The translations under genes were made by a program, and so were the position numbers. A DNA stretch of 64,000 nt from Limnomonas spitsbergensis (taxonomy: Eukaryota; Chlorophyta; Chlorophyceae; Chlamydomonadales). The DNA lies in the NCBI GenBank assembly GCA_037349105.1, contig JAYJMM010000103.1, forward strand, positions 868,001 through 932,000, read 5' to 3'. The notes below the pieces were generated by a model. It saw nothing but the letters and a program-made list of their open reading frames with translations. It searched no databases and had not been told where the DNA came from. Numbering within the stretch: position 1 is the stretch's first letter; each line of letters starts with the position of its first letter. Shown here piece by piece: positions 1,351-53,300 of the stretch.

Positions 1351-2207
1351 CTAGCAAGCAGTGACATGCATGGCTGGAAGTAAAGAAAAGACATCCCATA
1401 ATGAACAGACATCCCATAATGAACAGACATCCCATAAAGAAAGGACATTGCACAACACCCACGTCATCCGCTGATGCTGAAAAGAAAACATCTAATAACA
1501 ATCAGTGCGCGCGTTTTTCTAGAGAAGCAGGGGAGGGGTCATCCGACCATCAACTTTCAATGTTGTGGTGATAGCCCCCCCCCTCATCCCCCCCCCCACA
1601 CCGCTGCCGCTCCTCCTCCTGCTGACGCTCATAAGTGCGCTGCATCACAAGTGCCCAAGTGATCAATCCTATCAAGCCTTGAGCAACAGCCACGCTGGCC
1701 CGGGGCCGCAAGGAAGGCTGAGGCCAGCAGCCGCCTCGGCACGTCTCTCGTCGCTCCTCCCCCTAAAACGCGGCCTAGTTTAGGGTTTAGGGTTTAGGGT
1801 TAGAGCACATCTCCTAGCCACAATATCAATTATATAAAAAAATTGAGCAATAGCATACACGGTGAGTGCGAACCCGCACCCAGTGCCGTGCATTCTTTCA
1901 AAAACAGCTGCCAATTTGATGGTGTGAACACGAGTGAACCCTGAATCAGTGCTGTGCATTCATTCAAATTGCGGTGGTGCACACCGAGCTGCCCAGACCG
2001 TCTCCAGGCTACCTGCCCCCCATGGCAAGCAAGAAAATACTTTACTTAGAAGCAAGAAATTACGATAAAGCATCAGCTGCTTGTCGGTTGGATGATATTT
2101 GAGGATTGGTTGGACGTTGGTATGTGCATGGACATCGGTGCTCCCCGTGCCGCCTCATCTTGGCGCAGGGGCAAGGAAAGTGTGATCCTGGTGATCCCAC
2201 TGAACCA
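1350..2207. other. 3' flank of PDE gene
   Basis: Likely contains the 3' UTR of the PDE gene (minus strand). It has a triple CATCCCATAATGAACAGA-like direct repeat (about 1390-1445), a C-rich stretch (1570-1620) and a short TTTAGGG-type run (1778-1802). No second gene was recognised. Confidence 0.4.
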
Positions 2208-2316
2208 TCAGTCGCTTCCTGGTTGGAAGTTAGTCGGTTGACGGTTGAAGGATAGCTTCCCCTCCACACTTCTTTGCAGCGAGGAGGCCATGAAAGTGTC
2301 GTGGTGATCCCGCCAC
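2208..2316 (-). CDS. Exon 22: PDE C-terminus and stop codon
   Basis: Residues 939-974. It begins WRDHHDTFMASSLQRSVEGK, fitting the conserved N-x-x-x-W-x-x-H end of PDE catalytic domains across the join with exon 21, then a short polar tail ending GSD and TGA at 2208-2210. Acceptor GCAACAG|G. It sits just beyond the 28-bp array. No clear TGTAA polyadenylation signal was seen in the next kilobase downstream. Confidence 0.8.
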
Positions 2317-5300
2317 CTGTTGCATAAAGGAAGCACATGGGGGAACGTCAGCACATGTGCATGGGGGCAGGAACATCTGTACATGTGCATAGGGGCAGGA
2401 ACATCTCTACATGTGCATGGGGGCAGGAACATCTCTACATGTGCATGGGGGCAGGAACATCTCTACATGTGCATGGGGGCAGGGACATCTCTACATGTGC
2501 ATGGGGGCAGGAACATCTGTACATGTGCATGGGGGCAGGAACATCTGTACATGGGCATGGGGGCAGGAACATCTCTACATGTGCATGGGGGCAGGAACAT
2601 CTCTACATGTGCATGGGGGCAGGAACATCTCTACATGTGCATGGGGGCAGGAACATCTGTACATGTGCATGGGGGCAGGAACATCTGTACATGTGCATGG
2701 GGGCAGGAACATCTCTACATGTGCATGGGGGCAGGAACATCTCTACATGTGCATGGGGGCAGGAACATCTCTACATGTGCATGGGGGCAGGAACATCTGT
2801 ACATGTGCATGGGGGCAGGAACATCTGTACATGTGCATGGGGGCAGGAACATCTCTACATGGGCATGGGGGCAGGAACATCTCTACATGTGCATGGGGGC
2901 AGGAACATCTGTACATGTGCATGGGGGCAGGAACATCTCTACATGTGCATGGGGGCAGGAACATCTCTACATGTGCATGGGGGCAGGAACATCTGTACAT
3001 GTGCATGGGGGCAGGAACATCTGTACATGTGCATGGGGGCAGGAACATCTGTACATGGGCATGGGGGCAGGAACATCTCTACATGTGCATGGGGGCAGGA
3101 ACATCTCTACATGTGCATGGGGGCAGGAACATCTCTACATGTGCATGGGGGCAGGAACATCTGTACATGTGCATGGGGGCAGGAACATCTGTACATGTGC
3201 ATGGGGGCAGGAACATCTGTACATGTGCATAGGAACATCTCTACATGTGCATGGGGGCAGGAACATCTGTACATGTGCATGGGGGCAGGAACATCTGTAC
3301 ATGTGCATGGGGGCAGGAACATCTGTACATGTGCATGGGGGCAGGAACATCTCTACATGTGCATGGGGGCAGGAACATCTCTACATGTGCATGGGGGCAG
3401 GAACATCTGTACATGTGCATGGGGGCAGGAACATCTGTACATGTGCATGGGGGCAGGAACGTCTGTACATGTGCATGGGGGCAGGAACATCTCTACATGT
3501 GCATGGGGGCAGGAACATCTCTACATGTGCATGGGGGCAGGAACATCTGTACATGGGCATGGGGGCAGGAACATCTCTACATGTGCATGGGGGCAGGAAC
3601 GTCTGTACATGTGCATGGGGGCAGGAACATCTCTACATGTGCATGGGGGCAGGAACATCTGTACATGTGCATGGGGGCAGGAACATCTGTACATGTGCAT
3701 GGGGGCAGGAACATCTGTACATGGGCATGGGGGCAGGAACATCTGTACATGTGCATGGGGGCAGGAACATCTGTACATGTGCATGGGGGCAGGAACATCT
3801 GTACATGTGCATGGGGGCAGGAACATCTCTACATGTGCATGGGGGCAGGAACATCTCTACATGTGCATGGGGGCAGGAACATCTGTACATGTGCATGGGG
3901 GCAGGAACATCTGTACATGTGCATGGGGGCAGGAACGTCTGTACATGTGCATGGGGGCAGGAACATCTCTACATGTGCATGGGGGCAGGAACATCTCTAC
4001 ATGTGCATGGGGGCAGGAACATCTGTACATGTGCATGGGGGCAGGAACATCTCTACATGTGCATGGGGGCAGGAACGTCTGTACATGTGCATGGGGGCAG
4101 GAACATCTCTACATGTGCATGGGGGCAGGAACATCTGTACATGTGCATGGGGGCAGGAACATCTCTACATGTGCATGGGGGCAGGAACATCTCTACATGT
4201 GCATGGGGGCAGGAACATCTCTACATGTGCATGGGGGCAGGAACATCTCTACATGTGCATGGGGGCAGGAACATCTCTACATGTGCATGGAGGCAGGAAC
4301 ATCTGTACATGTGCATGGGGGCAGGAACATCTCTACATGTGCATGGGGGCAGGAACATCTCTACATGTGCATGGGGGCAGGAACATCTCTACATGTGCAT
4401 GGGGGCAGGAACATCTGTACATGTGCATGGGGGCAGGAACATCTGTACATGGGCATGGGGGCAGGAACATCTCTACATGTGCATGAGGGCAGGAACATCT
4501 CTACATGTGCATGGGGGCAGGAACATCTGTACATGTGCATGGGGGCAGGAACATCTGTACATGTGCATGGGGGCAGGAACATCTCTACATGTGCATGGGG
4601 GCAGGAACATCTCTACATGTGCATGGGGGCAGGAACATCTGTACATGTGCATGGGGGCAGGAACATCTCTACATGTGCATGGGGGCAGGAACATCTCTAC
4701 ATGTGCATGGGGGCAGGAACATCTGTACATGTGCATGGGGGCAGGAACATCTCTACATGTGCATGGGGGCAGGAACATCTGTACATGTGCATGGGGGCAG
4801 GAACATCTCTACATGTGCATGGGGGCAGGAACATCTCTACATGTGCATGAGGGCAGGAACGTCTGTATATGTGCATGGGGGCAGGAATGTCTGTACATGT
4901 GCATGGGGGCAGGAACATCTTTGCATATGCACACGTTTTACATACGCTGCCAGAGGCATGGTGGACACTGGGTGCATTGTCGCATGTGTGCATGGGGCCT
5001 TATGCAAACGCTCATGGTCGCTCACATTACCAAGTTCATCTGCACAGCAGTGAGCAGTGGCTGGCATGAGGGGAAGAGCGAGCAGAAAGACTGGAACTGC
5101 GGCAGCGCCACGACGGTGAAAAAGCCGGGCTGGGACTTGGTGACGCCCTCCTTGTGGCGATCCATCAGAGGGCTGACGGGCATGCCGGCCGCAGCCTCGC
5201 GGTCACCTTGCTGGAAAAACTGAGAGATGGGAAGGGAGACGCAAGGGGGGGGGAAGGTGTAAGGGGAGGGGGCTGAGAGATGGGTGGTGAGACGGAGGGA

Positions 5301-8300
5301 GAGGAATAAGGGGGGGGGGGGGGCTGAGAGATGGGAGGAGAGACGTGGGAAAGGAGTGGAAGCAGTCCTGTATTGGTGTGTGTGTGCAGAAAGTGTGAGG
5401 TATGAAGGGTATGTGAGGTGTGAAGGAGGTGTGATGGACGTGATGGATGGTGTGTGTGGGGGGGGGGGTCATGGGGTGCATGCAGGGGAGGAGCGTATGG
5501 GAAGGTGAGTGGGTGAGTGGTGGGAGGTGAGGAGTGAGGCGTGTGTGTGTGAATGTCCAACTTTGGCAGGTTGCCCAGCGGCCGCCCAAGGCCCAATTAG
5601 GACCAAACCTCTACCGGCCTACGACTGGTGGCAAGACAGCATGCCTGGCCAGAAATGAGGCTTACAGCCAGCGGTTAAAGTGTGGCTGGCAGGCAGCCGA
5701 GTGATTCAGAAAATAAACTGCCCGCATTTAGCCCATGTGCGCCATCCTCTCACCCCACCCGTCATCTGCATCCCCCCACCTACCCTACATGCCTCCTGTT
5801 TGGCCCCCATCCAGCCTCTACTTGCTGCCTATATCCCCCTCCCCCCCTTTTCGACACCATTCCTCAACTCTTCACCCCCTCCAGCCTACTTGCCGTTTGT
5901 CCCCCTCAAGCCTACTTTCTTCCTATATCCCCCCCCCCCCCTCTCCCCCACCGCCCTCTTGTCACCTGCATCCCCCCTCAGATCATAATCTTGTCCTGCA
6001 GCCTTTATCCCCACCTTTTCACACTATTCCGCATCTGTGTGCCCCCCTCATGCCTTTTTGCTGCCTACCCCCCCCCCCCCACACACACACAGACACACAA
6101 TGCCTTCTTGCTGCCTGTATTCCCCCTTCAGTCACCTCTTCTTCCAGTCTGTACCCCCCCCCCCCCCCCCCCCCCCCCGTCCCCTGCCACACACACACAC
6201 CGCCGTTCCAAACCATACCTCATCTATTTCCTCCCTCCCTCCCTCCCCCCACACCGCCTTTCCACATCTCACCCCACTCACAGCTCAACTCTTCTTGCAG
6301 CTTCTACCCCCCTTCCCCCCCACACCGCCTTTCCACACCATTCCTTGTCTGTTTCCTCCCCCCCACCTCTCATGCCAAATGTAACCCCCTCCCCCCGCAT
6401 CTCAGATTATCTCATATGTTTCCTCCCCCTCCCCCCTCCCCCTCTCACCTCATCTTGCAGCCTTCCCCCTCCCCCCTCTCACCTCATCTTGCAGCCTACC
6501 CCCCCCCCCCCTACACACACACCCTTCCCTCTCCCCTCTCCTCTCACCTCATCTTGCAGCCTGAACACCCACTTCTTGTGCACCTCATGGCTGCTGGTGA
6601 GGTGGCCCAGGTCAGCACACTTCAGCGACATCTGGTAAACCATGGCGCGAGAGTCGTCGTCCACCTGAGAGGACAGCGCCAGCTCGCCATGACCGCGGCC
6701 GCCGTCGGCAGACAGGCCGAACTTGGTGTTGAACTGCGACACCTGTCGCAAGTGTGAACAATGGTTATGATGTGAAAGGTGGTGAGCGTGTGGAAGTGGT
6801 GTAGAAGTGTGAACCTCCTGCTGAAAGTGGAGCTCGGAACCGACAATGCAAAATTTTGCGCATCCAGAAAAACATAATCTTATGCATGCTCGACATACAG
6901 TTGTCGCTTACCCTCAGTACACGATTTTGCATGACCATGCAGCATATTTTACTGACCATGCAGCATATTTTACTGACCATGCAGCATATTTTACTGACCA
7001 TGCAGCATATTTTACTGACCATGCAGCATATTTTACTGACCATGCAGCATATTTTGCATGACCATGCAGCATATTTTACTGACCATGCAGCATATTTTAC
7101 TGACCATGCAGCATATTTTACTGACCATGCAGCATATTTTACTGACCATGCAGCATATTTTACTGACCATGCAGCATATTTTACCGACCATGCAGCATAT
7201 TTTACTGACCATGCAGCATATTTTAATGACCATGCAGCATATTTTACTGACCATGCAGCATATTTTACCGACCATGCAGCATATTTTACTAACCATGCAG
7301 CATATTTTGCATGACCATGCAGCATATTTTACTGACCATGCAGCATATTTTACTGACTATGCAGCATATTTTACTGACCATGCAGCATATTTTACTGACC
7401 ATGCAGCATATTTTACTGACCATGCAGCATATTTTACTGACCATGCAGCATATTTTACTGACCATGCAGCATATTTTACCGACCATGCAGCATATTTTAC
7501 TGACCATGCAGCATATTTTACTGACCATGCAGCATATTTTACCGACCATGCAGCATATTTTACTGACCATGCAGCATATTTTACTGACCATGCAGCATAT
7601 TTTACCGACCATGCAGCATATTTTACCGACCATGCAGCATATTTTACCGACCATGCAGCATATTTTACCGACCATGCAGCATATTTTACTGACCATGCAG
7701 CATATTTTACCGACCATGCAGCATATTTTGCATGACCATGCAGCATATTTTACTGACCATGCAGCATATTTTACTGACCATGCAGCATATTTTGCATGAC
7801 CATGCAGCATATTTTACTGACCATGCAGCATATTTTACTGACCATGCAGCATATTTTACTGACCATGCAGCATATTTTACTGACCATGCAGCATATTTTA
7901 CCGACCATGCAGCATATTTTACTAACCATGCAGCATATTTTGCATGACCATGCAGCATATTTTACTGACCATGCAGCATATTTTACTGACCATGCAGCAT
8001 ATTTTACCGACCATGCAGCATATTTTACTGACCATGCAGCATATTTTACCGACCATGCAGCATATTTTACTGACCATGCAGCATATTTTACCGACCATGC
8101 AGCATATTTTACTGACCATGCAGCATATTTTGCATGACCATGCAGCATATTTTACTGACCATGCAGCATATTTTACTGACCATGCAGCATATTTTACCGA
8201 CCATGCAGCATATTTTACTGACCATGCAGCATATTTTACCGACCATGCAGCATATTTTACTGACCATGCAGCATATTTTACCGACCATGCAGCATATTTT

Positions 8301-14300: not shown

Positions 14301-17300
14301 TTTTACTGACCATGCAGCATATTTTACTGACCATGCAGCATATTTTACCGACCATGCAGCATATTTTACTGACCATGCAGCATATTTTACTAACCATGCA
14401 GCATATTTTACTGACCATGCAGCATATTTTACTGACCATGCAGCATATTTTGCATGACCATGCAGCATATTTTACTGACCATGCAGCATATTTTACTGAC
14501 CATGCAGCATATTTTACTGACCATGCAGCATATTTTACTGACCATGCAGCATATTTTGCATGACCATGCAGCATATTTTACTGACCATGCAGCATATTTT
14601 ACTGACCATGCAGCATATTTTACTGACCATGCAGCATATTTTACTGACCATGCAGCATATTTTACTGACCATGCAGCATATTTTACTAACCATGTAGCAT
14701 ATTTTACCGACCATGCAGCATATTTTACTAACCATGTAGCATATTTTACTGACCATGCAGCATATTTTACTGACCATGCAGCATATTTTACCGACCATGC
14801 AGCATATTTTACTGACCATTAGCAAGTTTATAATAGTGCACACCAGACTGTCTTTGGGGGGCCGCCGTACAGCCCATTGAGGACCCGCCCTAAACTGGCT
14901 AACAGCCGGAGACTGCCAGGCAGCCAATACTAGGCCTATGAGGAATCGCCCCAAACTGACTAACAGCCGGAGACTGCCAGGCAGCCAATGCTGGGCCAAA
15001 AGGGACCTGGCCCTAACTGGCTTTCCGCTCCAGGCCCCCTCGGCTGTAGGCCATGTAGCTGACATGTAGCTGACATGTAGCTGAAGCGCGCTATGACAAA
15101 TGCCCCAAGCAGAGGGTGGGTAGCAGAAGTCCGGAATCGGGGTAAAAATCTTACGCTGGCGCTTACAGGAGAAGCCCTTGAGAAGCGGTTCGAGATCCAT
15201 GCGGCACTTTTGACCCCCCCCCCCTACCCCCGGGCCTGCCCCAAGTGATTGATCACCTCCTCCCTGGGCCTGCCTCCCGCTGGGTTTAGGTCTAAGGGCC
15301 TGCCTCTATTGATTAAGATTGACCTGTGTGAGAATTTAGGGTTCACGGGTTAGGGTCAAGTTTCAGGTCTAAGGGTTTGCCTCTATTGTTTAAGACTGAC
15401 CTGCGTGAAGTGTTGCTTCATGTCTGTGGCCAGCACCATGTCGATGGCCAGCTTGCGGACTGTGGTCAGGACCTTGGGGGAGAGCCCCTTGAGGAAGTTG
15501 TGCTGATCTTGCTGGAGGAGCTTGAACGCGGCAGCCTGAGCATGGGCGGGCAGGGGATGGGTGAGTGGGTGGGCGGGGGGGGGGGGGGGGCACCAGTGTT
15601 CAACCAGTCTTGTCCAGGGTGCTTGCATGCTCTTAAAAGAAACATCCTCACCCGATAGGTCTTATATCTTTAAAAGCTCTACATCCTCTTTTTAAACAGA
15701 ACGCCAAAACTCAGCAAATCATGCAACAGGAAAATAAATATAGAAAAGGCTTGTTGATTTCTTTGTAAACCAATATTTGAACTAGCAGCGATGTACTAGT
15801 TACCTAAACATCGAATTTGAGCACGGTCCCATACCCTAAACTTTGCGCTCATAATTCAAACTGGTAGCACAGAAAGCGCAAGCCAGTTGAATCTATGACG
15901 GTTTAGGGTTAAGGGTTTTAGGGTTTAGGGTTATCATCCTAACCCTGAACCCTCACCAGATGCTGGATAAGGCTGTCATGAACCTGAACCCTAACCTCCC
16001 ACCATATGCTGGATGAGGGCTGTCATCACCCTGAACCCCACACCCTTCACCATATGCTGGATGAGGGCTGTCATCACCCTGAACCTCAAACCCTTCACCA
16101 TATGCTGGATGATGGCTGTCATCACCATAAACCCCAAACCCTCACCATATGCTGGATGAGGGCTGTCATCACCCTGAACCCCACACCCTCACCAGATACT
16201 GGATGAGGGCTGTCACAACCCTAAACCCCAAACCCTCACCAGATGGTGGACGAGGGCTGTCATCACCCTGAACCCTAAACCCTCGCCAGATGCTGGATGA
16301 GGGCTGTCATCACCCTGAACCCTAAACCCTCACCAGATGCTGGATGAGGTATGTCATCACCCTGAACCCCAAACCCTCACAAGATGCTGGATGAGGGCTG
16401 TCATCACCCTGAACCCTAAACCCTTCACCATATGCTGGATGAGGGCTGTCATCACCCCAAACCCTCACCAGAAGCTGGATGAGGGCTGTCATCACCCTGA
16501 AACCCAAACCCTCACCAGATGCTGGATGAGGGCTGTCATCACCCCAAACCCTCACCAGAAGCTGGAGGAGGGCTGTCATCACCCTGAAACCCAAACCCTC
16601 ACCAGATGCTGGATGAGGGCTGTCATCACCCCAAACCCTCACCAGAAGCTGGATGAGGGCTGTCATCATCCTGAAACCCAAACCCTCACCAGATGCTGGA
16701 TAAGGGCTGTCATCACCCCAAACCCTCACCAGAAGCTGGATGAGGGCTGTCATCACCCTGAAACCCAAACCCTCACCAGATACTGGATGAGGGCTGTCAC
16801 CACCCTAAACCCTAAACCCTCACCAGATGCTGGATGAGGGCTGTCATCACCCTAATCCCTCACAATATGCTGGATGAGGGCTGTCATTACCCTGAACCCT
16901 AAACCTGCACCATATGGTCGATGAGGGCTGTCATCACCCTGAACCCCAAACCCTCACCAAATGCTGGATGAGGGCTGTCATCACCCTGAACCCCAAACCC
17001 GCACCATATGCTGGATGAGGGATGTTGATACCCTGAACCCCAAACCCTCACCAGATGGTGGATGAGGGCTGTCATCACCCTAAACCCCAAACCCTCACCA
17101 TATGGTGGATAAGGGCTATCAATACCCTGAACCCTTAACCCTCACCAGATGGTGGTTCTCCATCGGCGAGCGGTCGTTGTACAACAGTGCCAGCTCATCA
17201 TTGGACTTGATCAGGAAGTCGTTGTTGAGGCCCTGAGGGAGCAGGGATGGGGGACAGGGGAGGGGGGGGAACGGAGCATGGATGCATGTACGACAAGAGG

Positions 17301-38300: not shown

Positions 38301-41300
38301 GCAACCCCCCTCCCAGCCTGACCTCAGGCCACACTTCCGCAGGCCGCCAGCTGAGTGCAACCCCCCTCCCAGCCTGACCTCAGGCCACACTTCCGCAGGC
38401 CGCCAGCTGAGTGCAACCCCCCTCCCAGCCTGACCTCAGGCCACACTTCCGCAGGCCGCCAGCTGAGTGCAACCCCCCTCCCAGCCTGACCTCAGGCCAC
38501 ACTTCCATATGCCGCCAGCTGAGTGCAACCCCCCTCCCAGCCTGACCTCAGGCCACACTTCCGCAGGCCGCCAGCTGAGTGCAACCCCCCTCCCAGCCTG
38601 ACCTCAGGCCACACTTCCGCAGGCCGCCAGCTGAGTGCAACCCCCCTCCCAGCCTGACCTCAGGCCACACTTCCATATGCCGCCAGCTGAGTGCAACCCC
38701 CCTCCCAGCCTGACCTCAGGCCACACTTCCGCAGGCCACCAGCTGAGTACAACCCCCCTCCCAGCCTGACCTCAGGCCACACTTCCGCAGGCTGCCAGCT
38801 GAGTGCAACCCCCCTCCCAGCCTGACCTCAGGCCACACTTCCGCAGGCCGCCAGCTGAGTGCAACCCCCCTCCCAGCCTGACCTCAGGCCACACTTCCAT
38901 ATGCCGCCAGCTGATTGCAACCCCCCTCCCAGCCTGACCTCGGGCCACACTTCCATATGCCGCCAGCTGAGTGCAACCCCCCTCCCAGCCTGACCTCAGG
39001 CCACACTTCCATATGCCGCCAGCTGAGTGCAACCCCCCTCCCAGCCTGACCTCAGACCACACTTCCGCAGGCCGCCAGCTGAGTGCAACCCCCCTCCCAG
39101 CCTGACCTCAGGCCACACTTCCATATGCCACCAGCTGAGTGCAACCCCCCTCCCAGCCTGACCTCAGGCCACACTTCCATATGCCGCCAGCTGAGTGCAA
39201 CCCCCCTCCCAGCCTGACCTCAGGCCACACTTCCATATGCCGCCAGCTGAGTGCAACCCCCGTCCCAGCCTGACCTCAGGCCACACTTCCATATGCCGCC
39301 AGCTGAGTGTAACCCCCCTCCCAGCCTGTCCTCAGGCCACACTTCCATATGCCGCCAGCTGAGTGCAACCCCCCTCCCAGCCTGACCTCAGGCCACACTT
39401 CCGCAGGCCGCCAGCTGAGTGCAACCCCCCTCCCAGCCTGACCTCAGGCCACACTTCCGCAGGCCGCCAGCTGAGTGCAACCCCCCTCCCAGCCTGACCT
39501 CAGGCCACACTTCCGCAGGCCGCCAGCTGAGTGCAACCCCCCTCCCAGCCTGACCTCAGGCCACACTTCCATATGCCGCCAGCTGAGTGCAACCCCCCTC
39601 CCAGCCTGACCTCAGGCCACACTTCCGCAGGCCGCCAGCTGAGTGCAACCCCCCTCCCAGCCTGACCTCAGGCCACACTTCCATATGCCGCCAGCTGAGT
39701 GCAACCCCCCTCCCAGCCTGACCTCAGACCACACTTCCGCAGGCCGCCAGCTGAGTGCAACCCCCCTCCCAGCCTGACCTCAGGCCACACTTCCATATGC
39801 CGCCAGCTGAGTGCAACCCCCCTCCCAGCCTGACCTCAGGCCACACTTCCATATGCCGCCAGCTGAGTGCAACCCCCCTCCCAGCCTGACCTCAGGCCAC
39901 ACTTCCATATGCCGCCAGCTGAGTGCAACCCCCCTCCCAGCCTGACCTCAGGCCACACTTCCATATGCCGCCAGCTGAGTGCAACCCCCCTCCCAGCCTG
40001 ACCTCAGGCCACACTTCCATATGCCGCCAGCTGAGTGCAACCCCCCTCCCAGCCTGACCTCAGGCCACACTTCCATATGCCGCCAGCTGAGTGCAACCCC
40101 CCTCCCAGCCTGACCTCAGGCCACACTTCCGCAGGCCGCCAGCTGAGTGCAACCCCCCTCCCAGCCTGACCTCAGGCCACACTTCCGCAGGCCGCCAGCT
40201 GAGTGCAACCCCCCTCCCAGCCTGACCTCAGGCCACACTTCCATATGCCGCCAGCTGAGTGCAACCCCCCTCCCAGCCTGACCTCAGACCACACTTCCGC
40301 AGGCCGCCAGCTGAGTGCAACCCCCCTCCCAGCCTGACCTCAGGCCACACTTCCATATGCCGCCAGCTGAGTGCAACCCCCCTCCCAGCCTGACCTCAGG
40401 CCACACTTCCGCAGGCTGCCAGCTGAGTGCAACCCCCCTCCCAGCCTGACCTCAGGCCACACTTCCATATGCCGCCAGCTGAGTGCAACCCCCTTCCCAG
40501 CCTGACCTCAGGCCAAACTTCCGCAGGCCGCCAGCTGAGTGCAACCCCCTTCCCAGCCTGACCTCAGACCCATTTTAGGCAGGTACCCCGCACTCCCTGT
40601 CTGAAGCCTGAAGTCAACCGCGTATTACAATTGAGAGCTGAATCAGCAGGGGGGGGGCTGTGTGTATGTGTGTGTGGTCATTATACATTGCCCCCCCCCC
40701 CCCCCCCACCTGTCCCCAGCCCAACCTCAGGCCAAACTTCCGCCGGCCGCCATTCTAGTGCTTCCCCCCTCTCCCCAGGGGGGCATGCGTATGTGTGTGT
40801 GTCGTCATTATACATTGCCCCCCCCCCCCCCCCCACCTGTCCCCAGCCCAACCTCAGGCCAAACTTCCGCCGGCCGCCATTCTAGTGCTTCCCCCCTCTC
40901 CCCAGGGGGGCATGCGTATGTGTGTGTGTGGTCATTATACATTGACCCCACCCTCCAACCTGCCCCCGACCGGACCTCAGCCCAAACTTCCGCCGGCTGC
41001 CGGTCGAGTGCACCCCCCCCCTATGGCCCCCGACCGGACCTAAGCCCAAACTTCCGCCGGCTGCCGGTCGAGTGCACCCCCCCCTATGGCCCCAGCCTGA
41101 CCTCAGCCCAAACCTCCGCCGGCTGCCGGTCGAGTGCACCCCCCCCCTATGGCCCCAGCCTGACCTCAGCCCAAACTTCCGCCGGCTGCCGGTCGAGTGC
41201 ACCCCCCCCTTATGGCCCCAGCCTGACCTCAGCCCAACCTTCCGCCGGCTGCCGGTCGAGTGCACCCCCCCCCTATGGCCCCAGCCTGACCTCAGCCCAA

Positions 41301-44300
41301 ACTTCCGCCGGCTTCCGGTCGAGTGCACCCCCCCCCTATGGCCCCAGCCTGACCTCAGCCCAACCTTCCGCCGGCTGCCGGTCGAGTGCACCCCCCCCCT
41401 ATGGCCCCAGCCTGACCTCAGCCCAAACTTCCGCCGGCTGCCGGTCGAGTGCACCCCCCCCTATGGCCCCAGCCTGACCTCAGCCCAAACTTCCGCCGGC
41501 TGCCGGTCGAGTGCACCCCCCCCCTATGGCCCCAGCCTGACCTCAGCCCAAACTTCCGCCGGCTGCCGGTCGAGTGCACCCCCCCCTATGGCCCCAGCCT
41601 GACCTCAGCCCAAACTTCCGCCGGCTGCCGGTCGAGTGCACCCCCCCCCTATGGCCCCAGCCTGACCTCAGCCCAAACTTCCGCCGGCTGCCGGTCGAGT
41701 GCATCCCAGGTGACGACGCCTTGCCGAGAGACGACGCCTGCCCGAGCGACGACGCACCGTGCGGCACATCAAATCCTTGCTCGTGGAGATGGAAATCCAG
41801 CGACAGATCCTCTTCAAGCTCGCGGGCGCCGCCGCCGCCGCCGCTGCCGTCGTCGTCGTCCTCTTCTGAATTCTCAGACTCAGGCTTGGAATCCGAACGT
41901 GCCTCGCATAGCTCCCCCTTGCCCTAGTTAAGGGTTTAGGGTTAAGGGTTATAGCTCGCCCTTGCCCTAGTTAAGGATTAAGGGTTAAGGGTTAAGGATT
42001 TAGGGTTAAGGGCTTTCCCTTGAACTAGTTTAGGGTTGAGGGTTTCGTACTTCGGGCTTATAGCTTCCCCGTGACCTAGTTTAGGGTTTAGGGCTTAGGG
42101 TTTTTAGCTCCCCCTAGCCCTAGTTTAGGGTTAAGGGTTTATAGCTCTCCCTTGTCCTGCGGGTTGCGAGAGGCAAGGCTGTCACAGCCTAGAATCGGGG
42201 TTTGAAGAGCAAGGAGGGGAGGGAGCTAGGAGTTCCCTCATCCCCACCCACACACCCACCTACCCAGCTCGCATTATCCACCCTGTCCCAACCATCCCCC
42301 AACCAACCAAATCCTTTTTCCTCATACATTCTCCTTCCCAGAACACATGACCGCCCCCCTATACACACCAATTCAGATCATCCCACCTTCCCACTTCCCA
42401 CACCCTAACCTGCGTCCTCCACCCCTCCACACCCCAAAGGACGTCAAATATCCCGTGCATTCTCAATCCCAACGCACATCATCCCCCCCCCCCCCACACA
42501 CACACACCAGCCCACGTCATCTCCCCACAATACATCCCTCCCCCCACACTCACATCCTCCCCTCGGACATTTTCCAGCAGCATCATGAGGGACTGGTTGA
42601 CCTCATTATCTTCATTGATGCTGCGCAGCTTCTTGAGCACGTCGGTCGGCCGGTGCATGTTGCCGCTAGCCACCATCGTGTCCCGCAGTTTGATAACCTC
42701 TTTCATATTCATCTGTGTGTGTGTGTGTGTGGGGGGAGGGGGGTACAAGGTGAAGTGTGGATGCTGCCGCTGGCCACCATCGTGTCCCGCAGTTTAAACA
42801 CCTCTTTCATATTCATCTGTGTGTGTGAGATAGAGTGTGTGGGGGGGGGGGGGGGGGTAAAAGGTGAAGTGTGGATGCTGCCGCTGGCCACCACCCTGTC
42901 ACGCAGTTTGATAACCGCGTTCAGACTTATCTGCACGCAGGTGTGAGGTTACGGGTTGGGTTCAGGATTGAGGGTTCAGGGTTCAGGGTTCAGGGACTAA
43001 GCAGATTGATCACTTCATACCTGTTTCGTTGCATGCTGCCGCATGGTTAGCTTTACAAACACTTCAAAAAAGCTTCCAGAAGGAAAGGCGCGCCCTAAGC
43101 TGTCAGAAACAGCTTTGCTGCTAGGATTCAGGGTTCAAATTAGCCGCTGGTGACATGAACAAACTTGTTCCACACCAAACTTGTTGCACATCTTGATCAC
43201 ATCATACAGGTTAACCTGCATATGCAGCTTTAAGGTTCAGGGTTCAGGATTTAGGGTCAAAGTGTCAGGTTACAACCTTCGGGTTTCAGGGAGGGTATAG
43301 CACCTAGCCACACCGCAATGTACCACATTTTGATCACCTTCGTCATTCACACTTCCACACCTTCACACCTCCTCCACTGCAGGATGATACCAAAGCGGAT
43401 CTCGGCAACCTTCATCCACTTATGCCTAATCATTATATATTGCACTTATTCCTTTTGCACTTGATCATAATCACTCTTAATTCCTAATGCGCCAACGCAT
43501 CCCCACCTTCTTCCCCTGAAGGATGCTGTCCAGCAGCATGAGCGTCTTCTCCGCCGGTGTGGTGCTGTTAAATCGCTGCTGCTGGGGAATGGCGCCCCGA
43601 ACGGACAACGCCTCGGCCAGGCTCTCCTTCAGCCTGGTTCAGGGTTCAGGGTCGCGGGTTTAGGGTTGCGAGTGTAGGGTTTATAAGGGTGAAGTGTTCA
43701 GGGTTCAGGTCCAGGGTTGCGGGTTGCGGGTTTTGAAGGGTGAAGTGTTCAGGGTTCACATCACCGCCCAACAACAATATCGTATCTCGGTTTTGCGACC
43801 CGCCGCTCTTGTGCGGTACATTGCGGAATGGTGACGCGAGCCAACAACTGGCTAGGATTGGTTTCCGTCCCTACCCACCCAACACCAAGCAGCCATAAGA
43901 TATCATTTTTAGATAGGATTCTCGCCCATGGGAATCTTGTTGAGATATTGCTTGGGTTCCAAGCAAATTTTAGACCAGCGACTCCCCTCCTCCTCAATTC
44001 ACACCCTTGATGACCCTGTTCCTCCTCCCTTCACACCCTTGATTACTCTCCTCCTCCTCAATTCACACCCTTGATGACCCTGCTCCTTTCCCTTCATACC
44101 TTTGATTACTCTCCTCCTCCTCAATTCACACCCTTCATGACCCTGCTCCTTTTCCCTTCATACCTTTGATTACTCTCCTCTGTTTCCAGCTTCTGCTGCT
44201 CAAGCCGGGCCGCAATCTTCTCAAGGTCGAGCTTCTCCTCCTGGGAAAGGGAAGTGTCAGGGGACATGGACGGTAGCGAGGGGAAAAGAAAAGAGTCAGA

Positions 44301-47300
44301 CGGGGACTTTAAGTTCTGAATGTGGAGACTAGGGCACTTTGAGCAGACCCCCCTGACGAGAGGCATCGGACTCAGAAATGGTCTGCGATACGCAGATCAG
44401 GTTCGAGGGTCTGCAGGGTGTTGACTGCTGAGGTTTTTAGGTTTCAGGTTTTCCAACTTTTAAGGCTTTCAGGGTTGACAGCTGCAAGGTTTTAAGGTTT
44501 GAGTTTTTAAGTGATACATATTTGCAGGGTGTAGGGTGTAGGGTCCAGGGTGAAGATGTACATCCAGGGTTCAGGGTGTCGGGTTAAGAGTTGAGTGTGT
44601 AGGATGAGTGTGTCAGGTTCAGGACTTCGGGGTGTAGGGTCCAGGGTTCCCTGAACTCTTCACCCTTAAGCCCCTCACCATAACCCTCTCCGCCCTATCC
44701 GCTTCCATTTTCTGCCATCCCCTGACCATGTCGACACTAACAAGGCTGCCCCTAAACCCTTAACCTCACCATGAGCCTCTCCGCCATCTCCGCTTCCATT
44801 TTCCGGCGCTCTGTTAGGACCACAAAGTCCGCCGTAGCATCATGTGGGGGGAGGTCCGATGTGATGAGCCCCAACGACTGCAAAGACAGAAGATTCAGGG
44901 TTAAGGGTTAAGGGATAAGGGATAAGGGATAAGGGTGTAGGGTGTAGGGTTAAGAGTGTAGGGTGTAGGGTGTAGGGTGTAGGGTGTAGGGTGTAGGGTG
45001 TAGGGTTAAGGGTGTAGGGTGTAAGGTATAGGGTGTAAGGTATAGGGTGTAGGGTGTAGGCCATCCATACAAAGGCAGGTGTGTGTTGCAGATAAAGGGG
45101 GAGGACCGACTTGATCCGTCCATACAAAGGCGGGTGTGTGTTGCAGATAAAGGGGGAAGACCGACTCGGTCCGTCCATACCAAGGCGGGTGTGTGTTGCA
45201 GATAAAGGGGGAGGACCGACTTGATCCGTCCATACAAAGGTTACATTAACTGGCATACCGAATGAGGATCTCACCCACCCACCCTGCATGACCTCTCACC
45301 GGAAATTGATCCAGGGTTCAGGGTTTCTTTAAATTCCCTGAACCCTGGATCAATTTCCGGTCGCAACCACAGCCACAGCCGCAACCACGGCCCCAACTCT
45401 GGTCCCAACCTCGTCACACAAGCTCTCACGAGCTCCTCGGTGCTTCAATTCTCGGCTACGTGTCCAACTTGGGGGCAGGTCGCCTCGCCCCGCGGCCGGC
45501 AAAGGCCCGATTGGGACCAAACCTGGACTGGTCTACGACCAGCACCCAAGGCAGTTTTGCAGGCCACAACTGGGGTCTCTGGCCAGAGGCCAGAGTGTAG
45601 CTGACACGTAGCTGAGTGGCGACAAAAGAAACGCTGAGCGTCTCACCAGCAGTTGGTCCAGGTCCCTTACTCGAGGCGTCCCCACAAACACCACCACTGG
45701 TCTCCCGTCTGAGCGTCTCACCAGCAGTTGGTCCAGGTCCCTTACTCGAGGCGTCCCCACAAACACCACCACTGGTCTCCCGTCTGAGCGTCTCACCAGC
45801 AGTTGGTCCAGGTCCCTTACTCGAGGCGTCCCCACAAACACCACCACTGGTCTCCCGTCTGTCAGCTTTGACGGGTAGAAGGCGCCTTTGAGATCTGCCC
45901 CTCGCATCGTCTCCAACACCACAGAGCCGTTACGCACAGCGGTAGTCATCTCAAAGTCCCAACCAGTGTGGGGGAGGAGCATCTACAAAGGGTGGGGAAG
46001 TGTGGGGGAGAAGTGCATGAAAGTGTGGGAGGGGGAGCATCTACAAGGGGTGGAAGTTTGGGAGAGAAGCAAGTAAGTGTGGGAGAGGAGCATCTACAGA
46101 GTGTGTGGAAGTGTGAAGGAGAGACATGAAAGTGTGGGGGGGAGCATCTACAAAAGGGTGGGGGGTTGAAGGAGAAGCATTAAAGTGTGGGGGGTAAGCG
46201 GCATACATAGTGTGGAAGTGTGGGGGCGGGGAGCAAATCAAGGCTGTGGAAGTGAGATGTTGAGGCATCTAGACAGGGTGGAAGAGTGTGGGCGGGGGTC
46301 GATCACCAGAGCAATGTGAGGGAGAAGTATATAAAATGTGTGGAAGTGTGTGTGGGGGGTGGGGGCAGGAAACATTGAATGTGGACAGGAAGGTTTGGAG
46401 GCATGGGTGCTCCCACTGAGGCTGGGAGGGTAGTGGGGCAGAACTCAGGCGAGCAACACGCGTGTGCAGCTCCAGACATACCTTCCTTCACATAGAGGGG
46501 TCTTCAATGGCACACGCACCCAGGAAGGGGGGTATCCACATTAACAGGATATATATATATTATATATTTTATACTAAATATTATAAAAAAATAGGCTAGC
46601 CCCCAGAATGAAATTTGGGTCCCTGACCGGTACACGTCTTTAAAGACGTCCCATAAGGTAGAAGCGCTTAACGTCTTTTAAGAGGCCCGCCAGCGGCCCG
46701 CCACCTATATATATATATATATATTCTCAACGGCAGTTTTCCTTCAAGAGGATACTCTTCTAAACAAGGTGTTATCCATGACCTGCAAGGCTTTTCCCGC
46801 CTCTACCTTTTGGTTTGGGGTTTAACCTGTAAGGGATTCCCCCCCCACACAGAGTTCCTGGGGTTTAAGGTTAGGGGTTTAACCTGTAAGGAATCCCCCC
46901 CCCCACACACAGAGTTCCTGGGGTTAGGGTTATGGGTTTAGGTGAAGGGTATAATCTGTCAAGAATTTTGCCCCCACACAGAGTTCCTGGGGGTTAGGGT
47001 TATGGGTTTAGGGTTTAACCTGTAAGGCATTTGCTCCCACACAGAGTTCCCTGTAGTGCATTCCCTCCGCACCTTGAAGTGGTCCGCCACCGGACAGCCG
47101 ATTTCCACATCGGGTGCCAGTGAGGACAGCAGGTGTCCCACCTACAAGTGACATCAACATATATGGATCAATGCTACATACTGTAGACGCCAGGGGTAGA
47201 CGCTCTTTGCCTCCGCAAGAAATTTATGTTTTTTCGCCGTCGCGCCTTGTGAAAACCCCAACTTCGGCGGATAATGCTTTTGGGACGTCAAAAAGTTCTC

Positions 47301-50300
47301 CGGTGAAGCGCAAGCGCTTTAGCTAAAAACTATAATTAATTTCTAGTTCTAGTTCTAGTTCGCGGAGGCAAACTTCTAGTTCTAATTTCTAGTTCTAATT
47401 TCTAGTTCTAGTTCTAATTTCTAGTTCTAGTTCTAATTTCTAGTTCTAGTTCTAATTTCTAGTTCTAATTTCTAGTTCTAATTTCTAGTTCTAATTTCTA
47501 GTTCTACTTTCTAGTTCTAATTTCTAGTTCTAGTTCTAATTTCTAGGAGGCAAATTTCTAGTTCTAGTTCTAATTTCTAGTTCGCGGAGGCAAATGAGTC
47601 TACGGAACTCAACTCAAAATATCTGGATCTACGAAAATATCTGGATCGACGTCACCATGAGCTCAAGAAGAAAGAAACAATGTCGTGCCCAGCTCAAAAT
47701 ATATGGACGTACATCATGTTGTACTCAAAACATCTGGATCTATGACATGTTAAGCTCAAATATCTAGATATATGTGACGATGAGATCCAATATCTGGATC
47801 CATGTGATGTTGGGCTCAAATATCAAGATGGACGTCATGTTGGGCTCAAAACATCTGGGGGGCCACCTCCCAGAAAAAAATATCTGGGGCTTTATCTGGG
47901 GTAGCGAAATATCTGGGGCAAAACATCTGGGACCACCTCCTGTGATCGTGCATGGGAAAAAATACCTGGACCAATGGCAAATGGTGATCTGGAGATTCAG
48001 GTATCAGACAAACAAAGGGAGTCAAAATAGAGCTCAGGATCCAATGCATGAAGATCTCAAGAGACCGGGATCCACTGCATGAAGATCTCATTATAAACAG
48101 GTTCCGCTGCATGCGGATCTCAACATTTCAAGATCCACTGCATGCAGATCACAACAAATCAGGATCCAGGGCATGTGGATCTCGATATATCAAGATCCAC
48201 TGCATGCAGATCACAACAAATCAGGATCCAGGGCATGTGGATCTCGACATATCAGGCTCCAGGGCATGTGAATCTTGATATATCAGGATCCAGGGCATGT
48301 GAATCTCGACATATCAGGATCCAGGGCATGTGGATCTCGACATATCAGGATCCAGGGCATGTGGATCTCGACAAATCAGGATCCAGGGCATGTGAATCTT
48401 GATATATCAGGATCCAGGGCATGTGGATCTCGACATATCAGGATCCAGGGCATGTGGATCTCGACATATCAGGATCCAGGGCATGTGAATCTTGATATAT
48501 CAGGATCCAGGGCATGTGAATCTCGACATATCAGGATCCAGGGCATGTGGATCTCGACATATCAGGATCCAGGGCATGTGGATCTCAACATATCAGGATC
48601 CAGGGCAAGTGGATCTCAACAAATCAGGATCCAGGCATATGGATCTCAACAAATCAGGATCCAGGGCATGTCCATTTCAACAGATCCAGGGGACGTAAAT
48701 CTCAACATATCAAGATCTAGGGCATATTGGGACATGGGGTTCAGGCCCTTATATTTGTAAAGCCGACGTCAGTGGATACACGCAAGTCGGTGGCGGCATC
48801 AAAGAAACCCAGGCCATAGCACTTGCGACCCGGTGAATGTGCAAACCAGTGCCAGCACCTTCCGCAGTTTCCCCCCCCCCGGCTACCAGCCCACCTTTGG
48901 CAGGCTGTCCCGCGGCCGCCGAAGGCCCATTCGGGACCAAACCTGGACCTGCCCGTGTCCAAAGCAGCATGGCCGGCCAGAGGCTGATGTGCAGCTGACA
49001 GGTAGCTGACATGGGTAGCTGACAGGTAGCTGAGACAACACAAAAAGGAACACTGCCCTCCCCTGTCAGCTCGTCCCTCCCTCCCCGCTGCTCCCCGCCC
49101 CACACTCCTCACACCTGCACCACATTCCTCACACCTGTCCCACACTCTTCACACCTGCACCACCCTCAGCTGGGCATCGATGACCATGTGGAAGGGGAAC
49201 AGCGCATGGAAAAGATCTGGTTCCGGAGCGTAGCCGACACCCGGACACCCAGATGTCTTCAAGCTCGGACGGACAGCCGACGAGTGTTCGGGGAGCGGAA
49301 AGGTCACTTGCCAAACCTGACAAGAATAAAATGAAAGTGTGGATGTGACAGAGCGTGACAGAGTGAAGGTGTAGGGGAGGTTATAGCTGTGGGCTGGTAC
49401 GTCGTTGTGGGGGAGGCATCCATGTGTGAACAAGGTATGGACATGTGAGTGTGGAAGTGTGGACAGGGGGGTCTGATTGCGGGCCCAATCTGGTGTGTAC
49501 ATCGTCGGTGAGGGAACAACATGGAGGTTTTAAAAATGTGGGAGAGAGGTGTGAGTGTGTGTGGAGGTGTGGATTGCGTGGAGATAGATGTCTGTATGGT
49601 ACATCAACAGGGGCGGCAACAGCATCAAAGGTGTGAACACGACTATTTGGGAGTGAGAGGTGGGAGGTGAGGGGTTCAAAACCGGCCAGAAACCATGACC
49701 CCGGCGCTCGCCCCGCTATCCAACCCCATTCCGCTGACACGTGGTCAAAGCTTCTGCATCCCTGAGTTACCTTGAGGTCCTAAACCTTCAACCTAAACAT
49801 TGAGGTATGAAACCCTGAACCCTAAACATTGAGGTCTGAAACCCTGAACCCTAAACATTGAGGTCTGAAACCCTGAATCCTGAACATTGAGGTCTGAAAC
49901 CCTGAACCCTAAACATTGAGGTCTGAAACCCTGAACCTGATCCTTGAGGTCCTAAAACCTCTACCTAAAGCCTCAACCTTGAGGTCCTAAACCCATCATC
50001 AGAATCCCTTGAACCCGTTAACCCCCCACCTCATCCCAGGCTGCGCTGTTACCTTAACTCTCACGCCCCTCACGAGGCGTAGCTTTCTTTCTTTCTAACC
50101 CCCCCCCCCTCCCCTCCCTAACCTTGCTATCACAGCACTGGACCACCGGCACAGGACAAAAGGTTTCAAATGAATCGGCCACCCTGAACCCTACCTCCCA
50201 CTCCATCCGCCCACCTCATGATGGCAGCTGCCATCATCGCGCCCCTATGATTGATTGGAAGGGGCGGCTGAGGGGTATCCCTCAGCCGCCCCTTCCAATC

Positions 50301-53300
50301 AATCAGCCCACCTCATGATCACAGCTGCCATCATCGCGCCCCCCCAAGGCAAGTCAAAATATCGTTGTATCTTTAACCTTAAACCCTCAACCGCCCCTTC
50401 CACCCCATTTCGCCCACCTCGTGATCTCAGCTGCCACAATGTTGCGGCCCCTCAGCAAGTAAATATCACTATCTTGACGTTAACCCTAAACCATAACCCC
50501 TCAGCCGCCTCTCCCTCTCCATTTCGCCCACCTCATGATCACAGCTGCCATCGTCGCGGCCCCTCAGCAATTCAAAATGCACCGTCGTGTTATAGACCTC
50601 AGTAGCTGCCGCCATACAGATCCCCACCGCCCACGAAGACAGCCCGGGGCGTTGGGACCAGTAGTGCATCTCCAGAGAGGCGGGCTGCACCTGAGGGTTT
50701 AGGGTTCAGAGTTTAGGGTTCAGGGTTTTGGGTTCGAGGCTTAGGGTTCGTGGTTTAGGTTGGGAGCAGTGCATCTCTAGAGAAGCTGGCTGTACTTCAG
50801 GGTTCAGGGTTGAGAGTTCAGGATTCAGGGTTTATGGTTCAGGGTTTATGGTTCAGGGTTTAAGGTTCATGGTTCAGGTTTCAGGGGTTTTCGTTCATGT
50901 TATTACTTGTGCATCTCCAGAGAGGCGGGCTGCGCCTGAGGGTTAAGGTTCAGGGCTTACGTTGGGTATAGTGCATCTCTAGAGCACCTGGCTGTACTAC
51001 CGGATTAAGGTTGTAAGGGTTGAGGGTTGAGGTTTAGGGTTCAGGGTTAAGGGTTCATATCAGGAATAGTGCATCGCCAGAGAGGCATGCAGCACTTGAA
51101 GGTCAAGGGTGAAGGGGGTTGAGGTTAGGAGAAGTGCATCTCTAGATAAGCTGGCCGTACGTCAGGTCTGATAGTTTCAGGGTTAAGGGTAAAAGGGTTG
51201 AGGGTTCATGCCAGGAGTAGTGCATCTCCATAGAGGCGGGCTGCACCTGAAGGTCAAGGGTCTAGGGTTTAGGGTTAAGGCTTAAGGTTAGGAGTAGCCC
51301 ATCTCTAGAGGAGCTGGCTACACTCCAGGGTGGAGGGTTTCAGGGTTCAGAGTTTAGGGTTTAGGGTTCATGTCAGGAGTTGTGCATCTCCATAGAGGCG
51401 GGCTGCACTTGAAGGTTTAGGTTTAAGGTTAGATGTAGTCCATCTCTACAGAAGCTGGCTGTACTCCAAGGTGAAGGGTTTCAAGATTTGGGGTCAAGGG
51501 TTTAGGTTGTGAGTAGTGCATGTCCACAGAGGCGGGCTGCACCTGAGGAGGCGCCAGATAGACCGTCGGAGAAGAAGAGGGGGATAACTACATGATGGAA
51601 GGAGGGGGAGCAGGTATGAACCCTGATCACACTCCCACACTTCTCCCAGGCTGGACACACCCTGGCCACGCCTATATCACACCACAATCCCACTCTTATT
51701 ACACCCTTACCATACCTGCTCCCACCATGATCACGTGCTCACACTTTGTTCAAACTGGTCACTTCATAATCTCATTGTTGTCACACTATGGCCACACTAT
51801 TATACCTCCCACACGGCCACATCCCACCCTGGCCGCACTGCGACATCATAGTCATGCTCGCGGCATTCCGCCATCATGCGTCCACCGTGGCCATATGTGC
51901 TTAATATATTTCACCTTAACATCCGCCCCCTCCCCGCCATTCCTCCCCCCACCCCCCAATCTCCCTCCCCCATCCTCCGCCTTCCTCCCAATGTCCTCCC
52001 CCCCCCTCCGGAGCCGAGCACTCTCATCAGCCGTTACCTTCCGCACTCGGATCTCTGGCGAGATGAACTGAGGGAAGTCCAGGGTCAGGTGCAGCTGCAT
52101 GACGAACATGTTGATGTTGCACAGGAACTCTCGTATGTTGCGACCCACTCCTGAGATCAGCTGCCGGTAGCCTTTGTTCACGGCCGCCTGAAGCAGGGCG
52201 CGGGGTGGTTGCCACATACCGTTTTCATGTACTAGAGGAGGGTTTAGGGTTGGGGGTTATAGTTTGGGCTTTATGGTACTAGAGGGGGTGGAACCGAGAC
52301 TGCCGCTCCCCGCTCTGGGATATGGAGCGCCGCAGCTGTGGACCGACATAGGGAGTGCGGGCTGAGGGTGAAATGCCATGCACCAGCCATGCAGCCATGC
52401 ACCAGCCATGCGGCCATGCACCAGCCATGCAGCCATGCACCAGCCATGCGGCCATGCACCAGCCATGCAGCCATGCACCAGCCATGCAGCCATGCACCAG
52501 CCATGCGGCCATGCACCAGCCATGCAGCCATGCACCAGCCATGCGGCCATGCACCAGCCATGCAGCCATGCACCAGCCATGCGGCCATGCACCAGCCATG
52601 CGGCCATACTACCATGCAACAGCCACGTGGCCATACTGCCGTGCACCAGTCATGTGGCCATGCAACAGCCGTGTGGCCATACTACCATGCAACAGCCATG
52701 TGGCCATACTGCCGTGCACCAGCCATGCGGCCATGTACCAGCCATGTGGCCATACTACTATGCAACAGCCACGTGGCCATACTGCCGTGCACCAGTCATG
52801 TGGCCATGCAACAGCCGTGCACCAGCCATGCGGCCATGTACCAGCCATGTGGCCATACTACCATGCAACAGCCACGTGGCCATACTGCCGTGCACCAGTC
52901 ATGTGGCCATGCAACAGCCGTGCACGAGTCATGTGGCCATGTACCAGCCATGTGGCCATACTACCATGCACCAGCCATATGGCCATGCAGCCATATGGTC
53001 AGGCAACAGCCATGCAGCCATGTGGTCAAGCACCAGCCATGTCACACCGCACCTTGACAAAGTATATCCCATATGCACACCCCATGTCGTACGCAGAGGT
53101 CTTCGTTATTTGGCACACGGACTTCATGAGGCTGCACAGGCGACATGCGGCGGGGGGGGGGCAACATTCAGTTAAGGAGATTGGGAGATTGATCAGGGCC
53201 CGTGATCTCCACGTCCAGTGTTTCTTTTTCCCCGAGATTCAGCTTCATGTCAGCTACATGTCAGCTACATGTCAGCTACATGTCAGCTACATGCCGGCCT

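Follow-up and report, generated by a model that had tools for sequence, protein, structure and literature searches.

Exon edges of the snow alga Limnomonas spitsbergensis, splice signals included, are copied into the neighbouring intron at about 30% of the edges that we examined. We observed these copies both in a gene of the window (the whole stretch of 64,000 nucleotides that was analysed) and in other genes, and we consider it very likely that they are minisatellites of local origin, which arise by pervasive tandem duplication while the exons themselves are protected.

Copies of exon edges in the window gene

The window contains, on its minus strand, an HNOB-HNOBA-PDEase_I gene that was modelled with 18 internal exons (b to s; 5031..52187) and that is backed by the homologs P0001 and P0002 and by Pfam, whose HNOB, HNOBA and PDEase_I domains each score above cut-off. 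Exons b to s comprise 2520 nt in a single open frame, and all of the 17 introns, 529 to 18,771 b in length, run from GT to AG. It was these 17 introns that we tested, not the 21 of an earlier sequence-only reading, whose exons 5 to 21 correspond to our exons c to s; firm models cover neither the final exon nor those ahead of b. Each edge, taken as a 38-mer (30 nt of exon and 8 of intron), was compared with 830 b of its own intron, and the same-side regions of the other 16 introns served as decoys. With the cut-off set at a score of at least 17 (the top decoy scored 15), 14/34 edges in 14/17 introns have copies, which bears out the earlier claim that most introns carry them. Three of the 17 introns held a copy of neither edge at this cut-off, and a further six edges with scores of 12-14, narrowly above all of their own decoys, were left uncounted (adding them would give 20/34). 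In the window, nothing reached the gathering score of an Rfam family and no tRNA was found; a separate dispersed element is present in several introns.

The donor edges that passed are those of exons c, f, g, h, k, p and r, and all arrays described here lie on the minus strand. Downstream of exon k (41923-41667) the donor array occupies 23283..41707 (score 38) and consists of 63-b units followed by 56-b units (308 copies over 17.3 kb), which resemble about 37 nt of the exon end plus the 5′ splice site; the 56-b unit matches the exon edge with a score of 34 across 48 b, and this intron contains 309 exact occurrences of GAGGTCAGG and 301 of CTGAGGTCAGGCTGGG. The donor array of exon f (45982-45797) at 45634..45861 (score 38) is a 75-b unit repeated three times with 100% matches, each unit starting at AG, crossing the exon end and stopping at GTGAGA. 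About three copies of the end of exon c (50690-50532) and its 5′ splice site lie at 50200..50460 (limits set by eye; score 32), a copy of the exon g edge at 44673..44714 (score 28), and 32/64-b units of exon h at 43981..44180 (score 25). Exon p (17232-17146) is followed by 47-b units with CATCTG/GTGAGGG at 15933..17155 (score 18), and exon r (6742-6548) by units of about 34 b with GCTGCAAGATGAG/GTGAGAGG at 6430..6562 (score 24).

On the acceptor side, the edges of exons c, f, j, k, m, n and o passed. Units with CAG and the exon start precede exon c at 50663..51546 (score 34), 53/54-b units precede exon f at 45965..46194 (score 22), and units of about 114 b, containing the 3′ splice site and about 50 nt of exon start, precede exon j (42712-42554) at 42653..42923 (score 32). 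Exon k has 43-b acceptor units at 41908..41994 (score 19), and partial copies of the start of exon m (21940-21807) are scattered over 21950..22540 (limits by eye; score 17). Copies of TCAG plus the start of exon n (20707-20633) occupy 20708..21136 (limits likewise by eye; score 34), and 84-93-b units with CCCCCCTAG and the start of exon o (19827-19659) lie at 19789..20088 (score 34). The exon lists of the sequence-only reading thus stand apart from one entry on each side: the donor of its exon 6 (d), where weak 20-b units with GTGCAG/GTGTGA at 49100..49167 score 15 and tie with a decoy, and the acceptor of its exon 21 (s), which scores just 8. No window intron has both of its edges copied (0/17; P=0.006, calculated after the fact), a pattern that did not prove general, as 5/23 kinesin introns do (two short introns, and exon pairs that are not adjacent, being left out of the count).

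Recurrence in other genes and the repeat background

The same count was made in three exon sets. In the window set, 7/18 donor and 7/18 acceptor edges have copies, compared with 0/623 and 0/592 decoys. Among 11 kinesin loci, picked for their compact hit clusters (42/139 hits), the figures are 16/40 and 13/40, with decoys at 6/1491 and 4/1456, of whose matches some may be paralogs. Ten of these loci are positive and sit on different contigs, and the locus on contig C91 showed no edge copies; contig C103 is positive too. Kinesin exon ends were taken from Pfam hits and a codon model, with one end set by hand, in some cases via paralogs, in 5/42 exons; three of the four hand-set donors and the lone hand-set acceptor are positive, and their removal leaves 13/36 and 12/39. 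A de novo set, resting on a codon model begun from the window gene and without homology confirmation, comprised 101 exons, of which 12 that were mostly tandem repeat were removed and 89 kept; 27/85 donor and 16/82 acceptor edges with sufficient flank have copies, compared with 4/3166 and 3/2982 decoys. This set takes in three PDE-like loci and the window flanks, the remainder all coming from C103. Our own gene finder ran two window exons, f and k, on into their copies. Donor and acceptor copy rates do not differ significantly (p=0.29).

The splice site itself is spanned by 160/176 donor and 138/154 acceptor copies, mean flank identity is 0.896 and 0.873, respectively, and the periods of intronic arrays range from about 15 to 126 b (10-90%). 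Copies are confined to the expected side, donor copies downstream and acceptor copies upstream as had been claimed, with 0/247 in the far-side intron over all exon sets, although this direction largely follows from the definition. The decay with distance that had been described was also seen, if modestly: where an edge of any set had two or more copies (65 edges), the nearest was the more similar in 41, the less similar in 17 and tied in 7 (p=0.002), and rank correlations of similarity with distance occur with both signs.

Tandem repeats are by no means peculiar to exon edges. Repeats of period at least 10, as called by TRF, make up 31.8% of 217 kb sampled from C103 (20 evenly spaced stretches and the two window flanks), which indicates that duplication is general. 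They take up 31.7% of the sequence that separates kinesin exons, and in the introns of the window their share is 71.9%. The window as a whole is 58% tandem repeat, above the sampled average. Exon cores are largely spared, at 1.7% (kinesin), 6.1% (de novo) and 8.2% (window), and just 1/98 exon-centre 60-mers has copies. Over all sets, the fraction of donor 30-mers with copies rises from 0.01 at -75 and 0.09 at -45 to 0.30 at -15 (all exon) and 0.36 at 0, and is 0.22-0.38 inside the intron; the acceptor profile gives 0.22 at -15, 0.24 at 0 and 0.21-0.37 in the intron, with 0-3 decoy matches per point. In other words, repeats keep to a plateau level throughout the intron, and their rate dies away over about 60 nt of exon. 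A simple unit-length model fits this only roughly: at -60 it predicts 0.28-0.40 of the plateau and we observe 0.06 for donors and 0.17 for acceptors. Copies extending more than 45 nt into the exon are thus rarer than predicted, which suggests that selection or the choice of unit near exons matters.

Origin of the copies

These observations can be accommodated by a model in which short segments, typically of tens of bases, are tandemly duplicated across the sampled DNA, presumably by slippage or unequal exchange, with introns affected at about the same frequency as other DNA. A duplication across a splice junction would be tolerated, since one junction still preserves the original exon and the extra exon edge with its splice site is just intron, whereas duplications within exons would be eliminated by selection. 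Successive rounds would then build arrays whose copies drift while the exon is retained. The earlier proposal that exons are kept and copies drift holds as to the sparing and the divergence, with selection as the probable cause. Splicing would disregard the extra junctions by taking the innermost exon boundary on both sides, that is, the shortest exon, which is the choice that exon definition predicts; use of the outermost junctions of the intron probably follows this rule. Three points sit less well with this explanation, namely the scarcity of copies that extend far into the exon, the position of donor edges somewhat above random intron, and the above-average repeat content of the window gene.

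The sequence-only reading, whose interpretation is partly supported, had instead proposed a process that copies exon-intron boundaries outward. Such a junction-directed process, in which for example breaks or R-loops that form at 5′ splice sites in transcription, and are repaired by re-copying, seed the repeats, would predict an excess at junctions. Donor-edge 60-mers of the window and kinesin genes do have copies more often than random intron 60-mers (24/45, 53%, vs 28/82, 34%; p=0.04), and between 0 and +120 the donor profile stands slightly above its level between +135 and +300. However, de novo donors show no excess (27/73, 37%, vs 59/178, 33%; p=0.56), the combined donor difference is 51/118 (43%) vs 87/260 (33%; p=0.08), acceptors are level with random intron (43/120, 36%, vs 93/252, 37%; p=0.9), and tandem repeats are equally common in sampled C103 DNA and between kinesin exons. 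Acceptor edges are therefore no higher than random 60-mers and donor edges nearly so, which is the outcome that the sequence-only reading had itself named as refuting its proposal, and with no clear junction peak in the profile either, junction-seeded copying appears unlikely to us. Nor is the pattern "too regular for chance slippage", as had been argued, because a duplication straddling a junction would put the extra copy in the intron under any mechanism.

That the copies are functional, as alternative donors or acceptors or in splicing regulation, finds some support in the retention of GT or AG in most site-spanning copies (144/160 and 104/138) and in the three identical 75-b (25-codon) units of exon f, which are stop-free. 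Flank identity leads one to expect 129 and 106; the slight GT excess (p=0.002) is given no weight because copies in one array share their history, and the counts show no purging of copied splice sites. The offset of the nearest copy modulo 3 is flat (16/17/17 for donors, 15/14/13 for acceptors), giving no sign of frame selection, and frame-preserving copying was rejected on this ground. Some 300 copied donors inside a single intron also argue against function, as do the kinesin paralogs, which have many exon boundaries in common and most arrays different: of 13 paralogous edges copied in at least one paralog, 9 are copied in one only and 4 in both. We therefore regard function as quite improbable. 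Some arrays may be shared or have started twice, given these four edges and the 1/24 intron-flank pairs that is similar (score 37; others 18 or less). The paralogs bear equally on the possibility that introns were gained when exon segments with AGGT were duplicated in tandem, as proposed in amphioxus (PMC3087553). Duplicated exon pieces carrying splice sites do exist here, but in three paralog pairs (72-86% nucleotide identity) junctions are shared and 9/12 exon pairs are of equal length (6/9 of those without a hand-set end), with arrays mostly in one paralog, so those introns are older than their arrays and their gain by this route has next to no probability. An assembly or read artefact, conceivable insofar as long arrays are hard to size in a long-read assembly, is scarcely credible either, since the copies are diverged and occur on different contigs, and the published assembly is described as polished with both PacBio and Illumina reads.

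Relation to known systems and to splicing

Introner-like elements are one sequence family common to many introns, and the edge copies do not fit this description, being absent from other introns save for rare decoy matches. A much closer likeness is the exon stuttering described for chicken and avian dot chromosomes (236 introns of 115 genes, 190 of the introns on dot chromosomes, with length variation among individuals; PMC12954441), in which the lateral part of an exon and its splice donor or acceptor are directly and tandemly copied into the adjacent intron. As reported there, the copies are imperfect and of local origin, the introns are highly repetitive, the exon is intact and intergenic DNA is involved. 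In the alga, copies likewise lie in the exon's own intron far above decoys, include the splice site next to an intact exon (the window coding sequence is open), and form units that are imperfect and measure tens to hundreds of bases. Unlike the mainly dot-chromosomal bird copies, those of the alga are spread over C103 and the contigs of the ten positive kinesin loci; confinement to dot chromosomes is a matter of distribution and not a structural feature. Similarly, the "mirages" of the amphioxus Adh3 and globin genes are minisatellite-like duplications of intron-exon boundaries, for which that paper's data suggest normal splicing (PMC3087553). Tandem units across acceptor or donor junctions, many with AG or GT kept, are what we find too, with the difference that mirages concern a few loci of a chordate and the present copies many genes of an alga. 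The AGGT model of intron gain has in common with our case the tandem duplication of splice-like sites, but existing, shared introns were here lengthened rather than newly made.

What is new here, then, is the host, an alga, and the occurrence of copies beyond special chromosomes in our sample. Exon-edge stuttering now extends outside animals, since the literature searched showed it in amphioxus and birds, with GC-rich gerbil genes mentioned, data not shown, in the bird paper (PMC12954441). Somewhat speculatively, the alga may live under a genome-wide duplication regime in which about 30% of edges are ringed by mostly intact decoys, some 300 of them in one intron, and the outermost pair is still spliced on both sides; the same instability might have arisen independently in amphioxus, birds and algae, and the donor excess would leave room for a weak transcription-linked source. 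Full-length transcripts of L. spitsbergensis are reported in its genome paper, which makes the rule of splice-site choice testable. Gene finders may take the wrong copy of an exon edge, and this should be heeded as a warning. If the sampled rate held genome-wide, there would be thousands of natural contests between near-identical splice sites and, if the above is true, a natural large-scale demonstration of splice-site choice across the exon, that is, of exon definition, in a unicellular alga.

Edge copies in the window gene

The edge-copy pattern in the window (contig JAYJMM010000103.1, hereafter C103, 868001-932000) is carried by a single gene on the minus strand. The gene model has 18 internal exons, lettered b to s and running from 52187 to 5031; they join into 2520 nt that are open in one frame, with all introns GT..AG, while the first exons and the last exon of the gene are not firmly placed. 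The predicted protein bears HNOB, HNOBA and PDEase_I domains, all above the Pfam cut-offs, and has homologs in Chlamydomonas eustigma and Haematococcus lacustris. The region 5031-52187 thus encodes a fusion of an HNOB-HNOBA module, of the NO-sensing type, with a cyclic nucleotide phosphodiesterase domain, and by eye the beginning of the same fusion is seen in the Haematococcus homolog. Minus-strand ORFs at 57408-60089, with RNase H-like and reverse-transcriptase-like stretches, look by eye like a LINE-type element.

When each 38-nt exon edge was compared with its own intron, using same-side regions of 16 other introns as decoys, copies scoring above every decoy were found at 7/17 donors and 7/17 acceptors; 14 of the 17 introns contained an edge copy and three contained none. 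Among the edges named in the sequence-only reading, all were confirmed except two, the donor of its exon 6 (our d) being weak and the acceptor of its exon 21 (our s) giving no score. The most extreme case is the 18.8-kb intron k-l, with a 17.3-kb array of 56-b units; the unit resembles the 3' end of exon k (37 nt) plus the donor (score 34 over 48 bases), and CTGAGGTCAGGCTGGG occurs there in 301 exact copies. Exon f is followed by three identical 75-b units (45600-45861; 25 codons, no stop), which, each being bounded by an AG and a GTGAGA, could serve as extra exon pieces. Two further long arrays were noted, one of 21 b x 374 (6924-14819) adjoining the donor edge of exon q, which scores only 12, and one of 28 b x 92 (2353-4931) beyond exon s.

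Recurrence and repeat density

The same structure recurs in other genes. From 139 matches to the Pfam kinesin domain, 11 loci on 11 contigs (42 exons) were picked for their compact hit clusters; 16 of their 40 donor edges and 13 of their 40 acceptor edges have copies, against 6/1491 and 4/1456 for the respective decoys. At least one edge copy was present in 10 of the 11 loci, none being found in the three-exon locus on C91, and 15 of the 23 kinesin introns that lie between adjacent exons and are long enough held copies of one edge or both. Among de novo predicted exons, mainly from C103 (89 of 101 kept), copies occurred at 27/85 donors and 16/82 acceptors (decoys 1/1928 and 3/1798; in a larger draw, 4/3166 and 3/2982), bringing the three sets together to 50/143 donors and 36/140 acceptors. 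One minus-oriented kinesin exon (locus L033, 2311-2511), whose end was set by hand from its paralog, has a GC donor (CAG/GCAAGT), and its edge recurs downstream in units of ~89 b.

Counted at period 10 or more, tandem repeats cover 31.8% of a 217-kb C103 sample (20 evenly spaced stretches plus the window flanks) and 58% of the window, 31.7% of inter-exon kinesin spans and 71.9% of window introns, and 1.7-8.2% of exon cores. Since the genome paper lists 0.10% satellites, with <0.01% simple repeats and 22.78% unclassified repeats (PMC11228838), these minisatellites may fall within its "unclassified" class. Telomere-like CCCTAAACCCT (x89) and CCCTGAACCCT (x59) were also seen in the 200 kb of evenly spaced C103 stretches (simulation means of 0 and 1, n=3) and, by eye, in several window introns. 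A dispersed element of ~150 b or more at 5560-5720 recurs at 45487-45632, 48895-49034, 53272-53413, 55432-55571 and 20419-20506, its copies being 62-79% identical; four of these six places lie within introns of the gene described above, and outside the window 13 further loci hold 21 matches to the element.

Junctions and the repeat plateau

The sequence-only reading had regarded the pattern as too regular for chance slippage and as suggesting a process that repeatedly copies exon-intron boundaries outward. Donor copies do lie downstream and acceptor copies upstream; this order, however, would be expected of any tandem duplication straddling a junction, because such an event would keep the original exon and add the extra copy to the intron. 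The claimed decay with distance is borne out on average (41 edges for, 17 against, 7 ties). Boundary-directed copying was not clearly supported by the comparison which that reading had itself proposed: 60-mers from edges were not clearly above random intron 60-mers, either for donors (51/118 vs 87/260; p=0.08 combined) or for acceptors (43/120 vs 93/252). Donors hint at a level slightly above that of random intron, an excess that comes mainly from the window gene together with the kinesin genes, where p=0.04; the de novo exons give p=0.56. Copies were found for 1/98 exon-centre 60-mers, and a search of far-side introns for edge copies gave 0/247. For 30-mers at the junction and throughout the intron, the probability of a partner deeper in the intron is ~0.2-0.4; on the exon side it fades, reaching ~0.01 at 75 nt from the junction. 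Edge copies are thus not clearly junction-seeded; with tandem repeats covering the sampled C103 DNA and the inter-exon kinesin spans alike, and with edge rates close to those of random intron, the junction marks the shoulder of a repeat plateau that is general, and it is from exons that repeats are missing.

Copies that take in a long piece of exon are less frequent than expected under a simple unit-length model, suggesting that such copies are to some extent selected against. Among the exons of three pairs of kinesin paralogs, 9/12 exon pairs are of equal length (three of the nine with a hand-set end) and, at 9 of the 13 paralogous edges with copies in either paralog, copies occur in one only; since exon lengths are shared and copies mostly are not, most of these arrays appear to have arisen later than the introns holding them.

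Splicing and known systems

The splice dinucleotide is kept in 144/160 donor and 104/138 acceptor copies, about equal to or above the flank-based prediction, and copy offsets tested for frame bias showed none. If the conserved exon is the spliced exon, the outermost site would be chosen on both sides, yielding the shortest exon. Such a choice would fit exon definition, for large flanking introns under which closest-across-the-exon pairing of splice sites has been reported (PMC9225289).

As described in the respective reports, the "mirages" of the amphioxus Adh3 and globin genes (PMC3087553) and "exon stuttering" in chicken (PMC12954441) have the same structure as the edge copies seen here. In chicken, 115 genes with a total of 236 such introns are reported, dot chromosomes carrying 190 of these introns, and gerbil genes are mentioned as well (PMC12954441). 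Our literature search, which covered few subscription journals, found no report of edge copies in algae or plants. The structure itself is therefore already known, and what is notable in this alga is the lineage in which it occurs and its scale.
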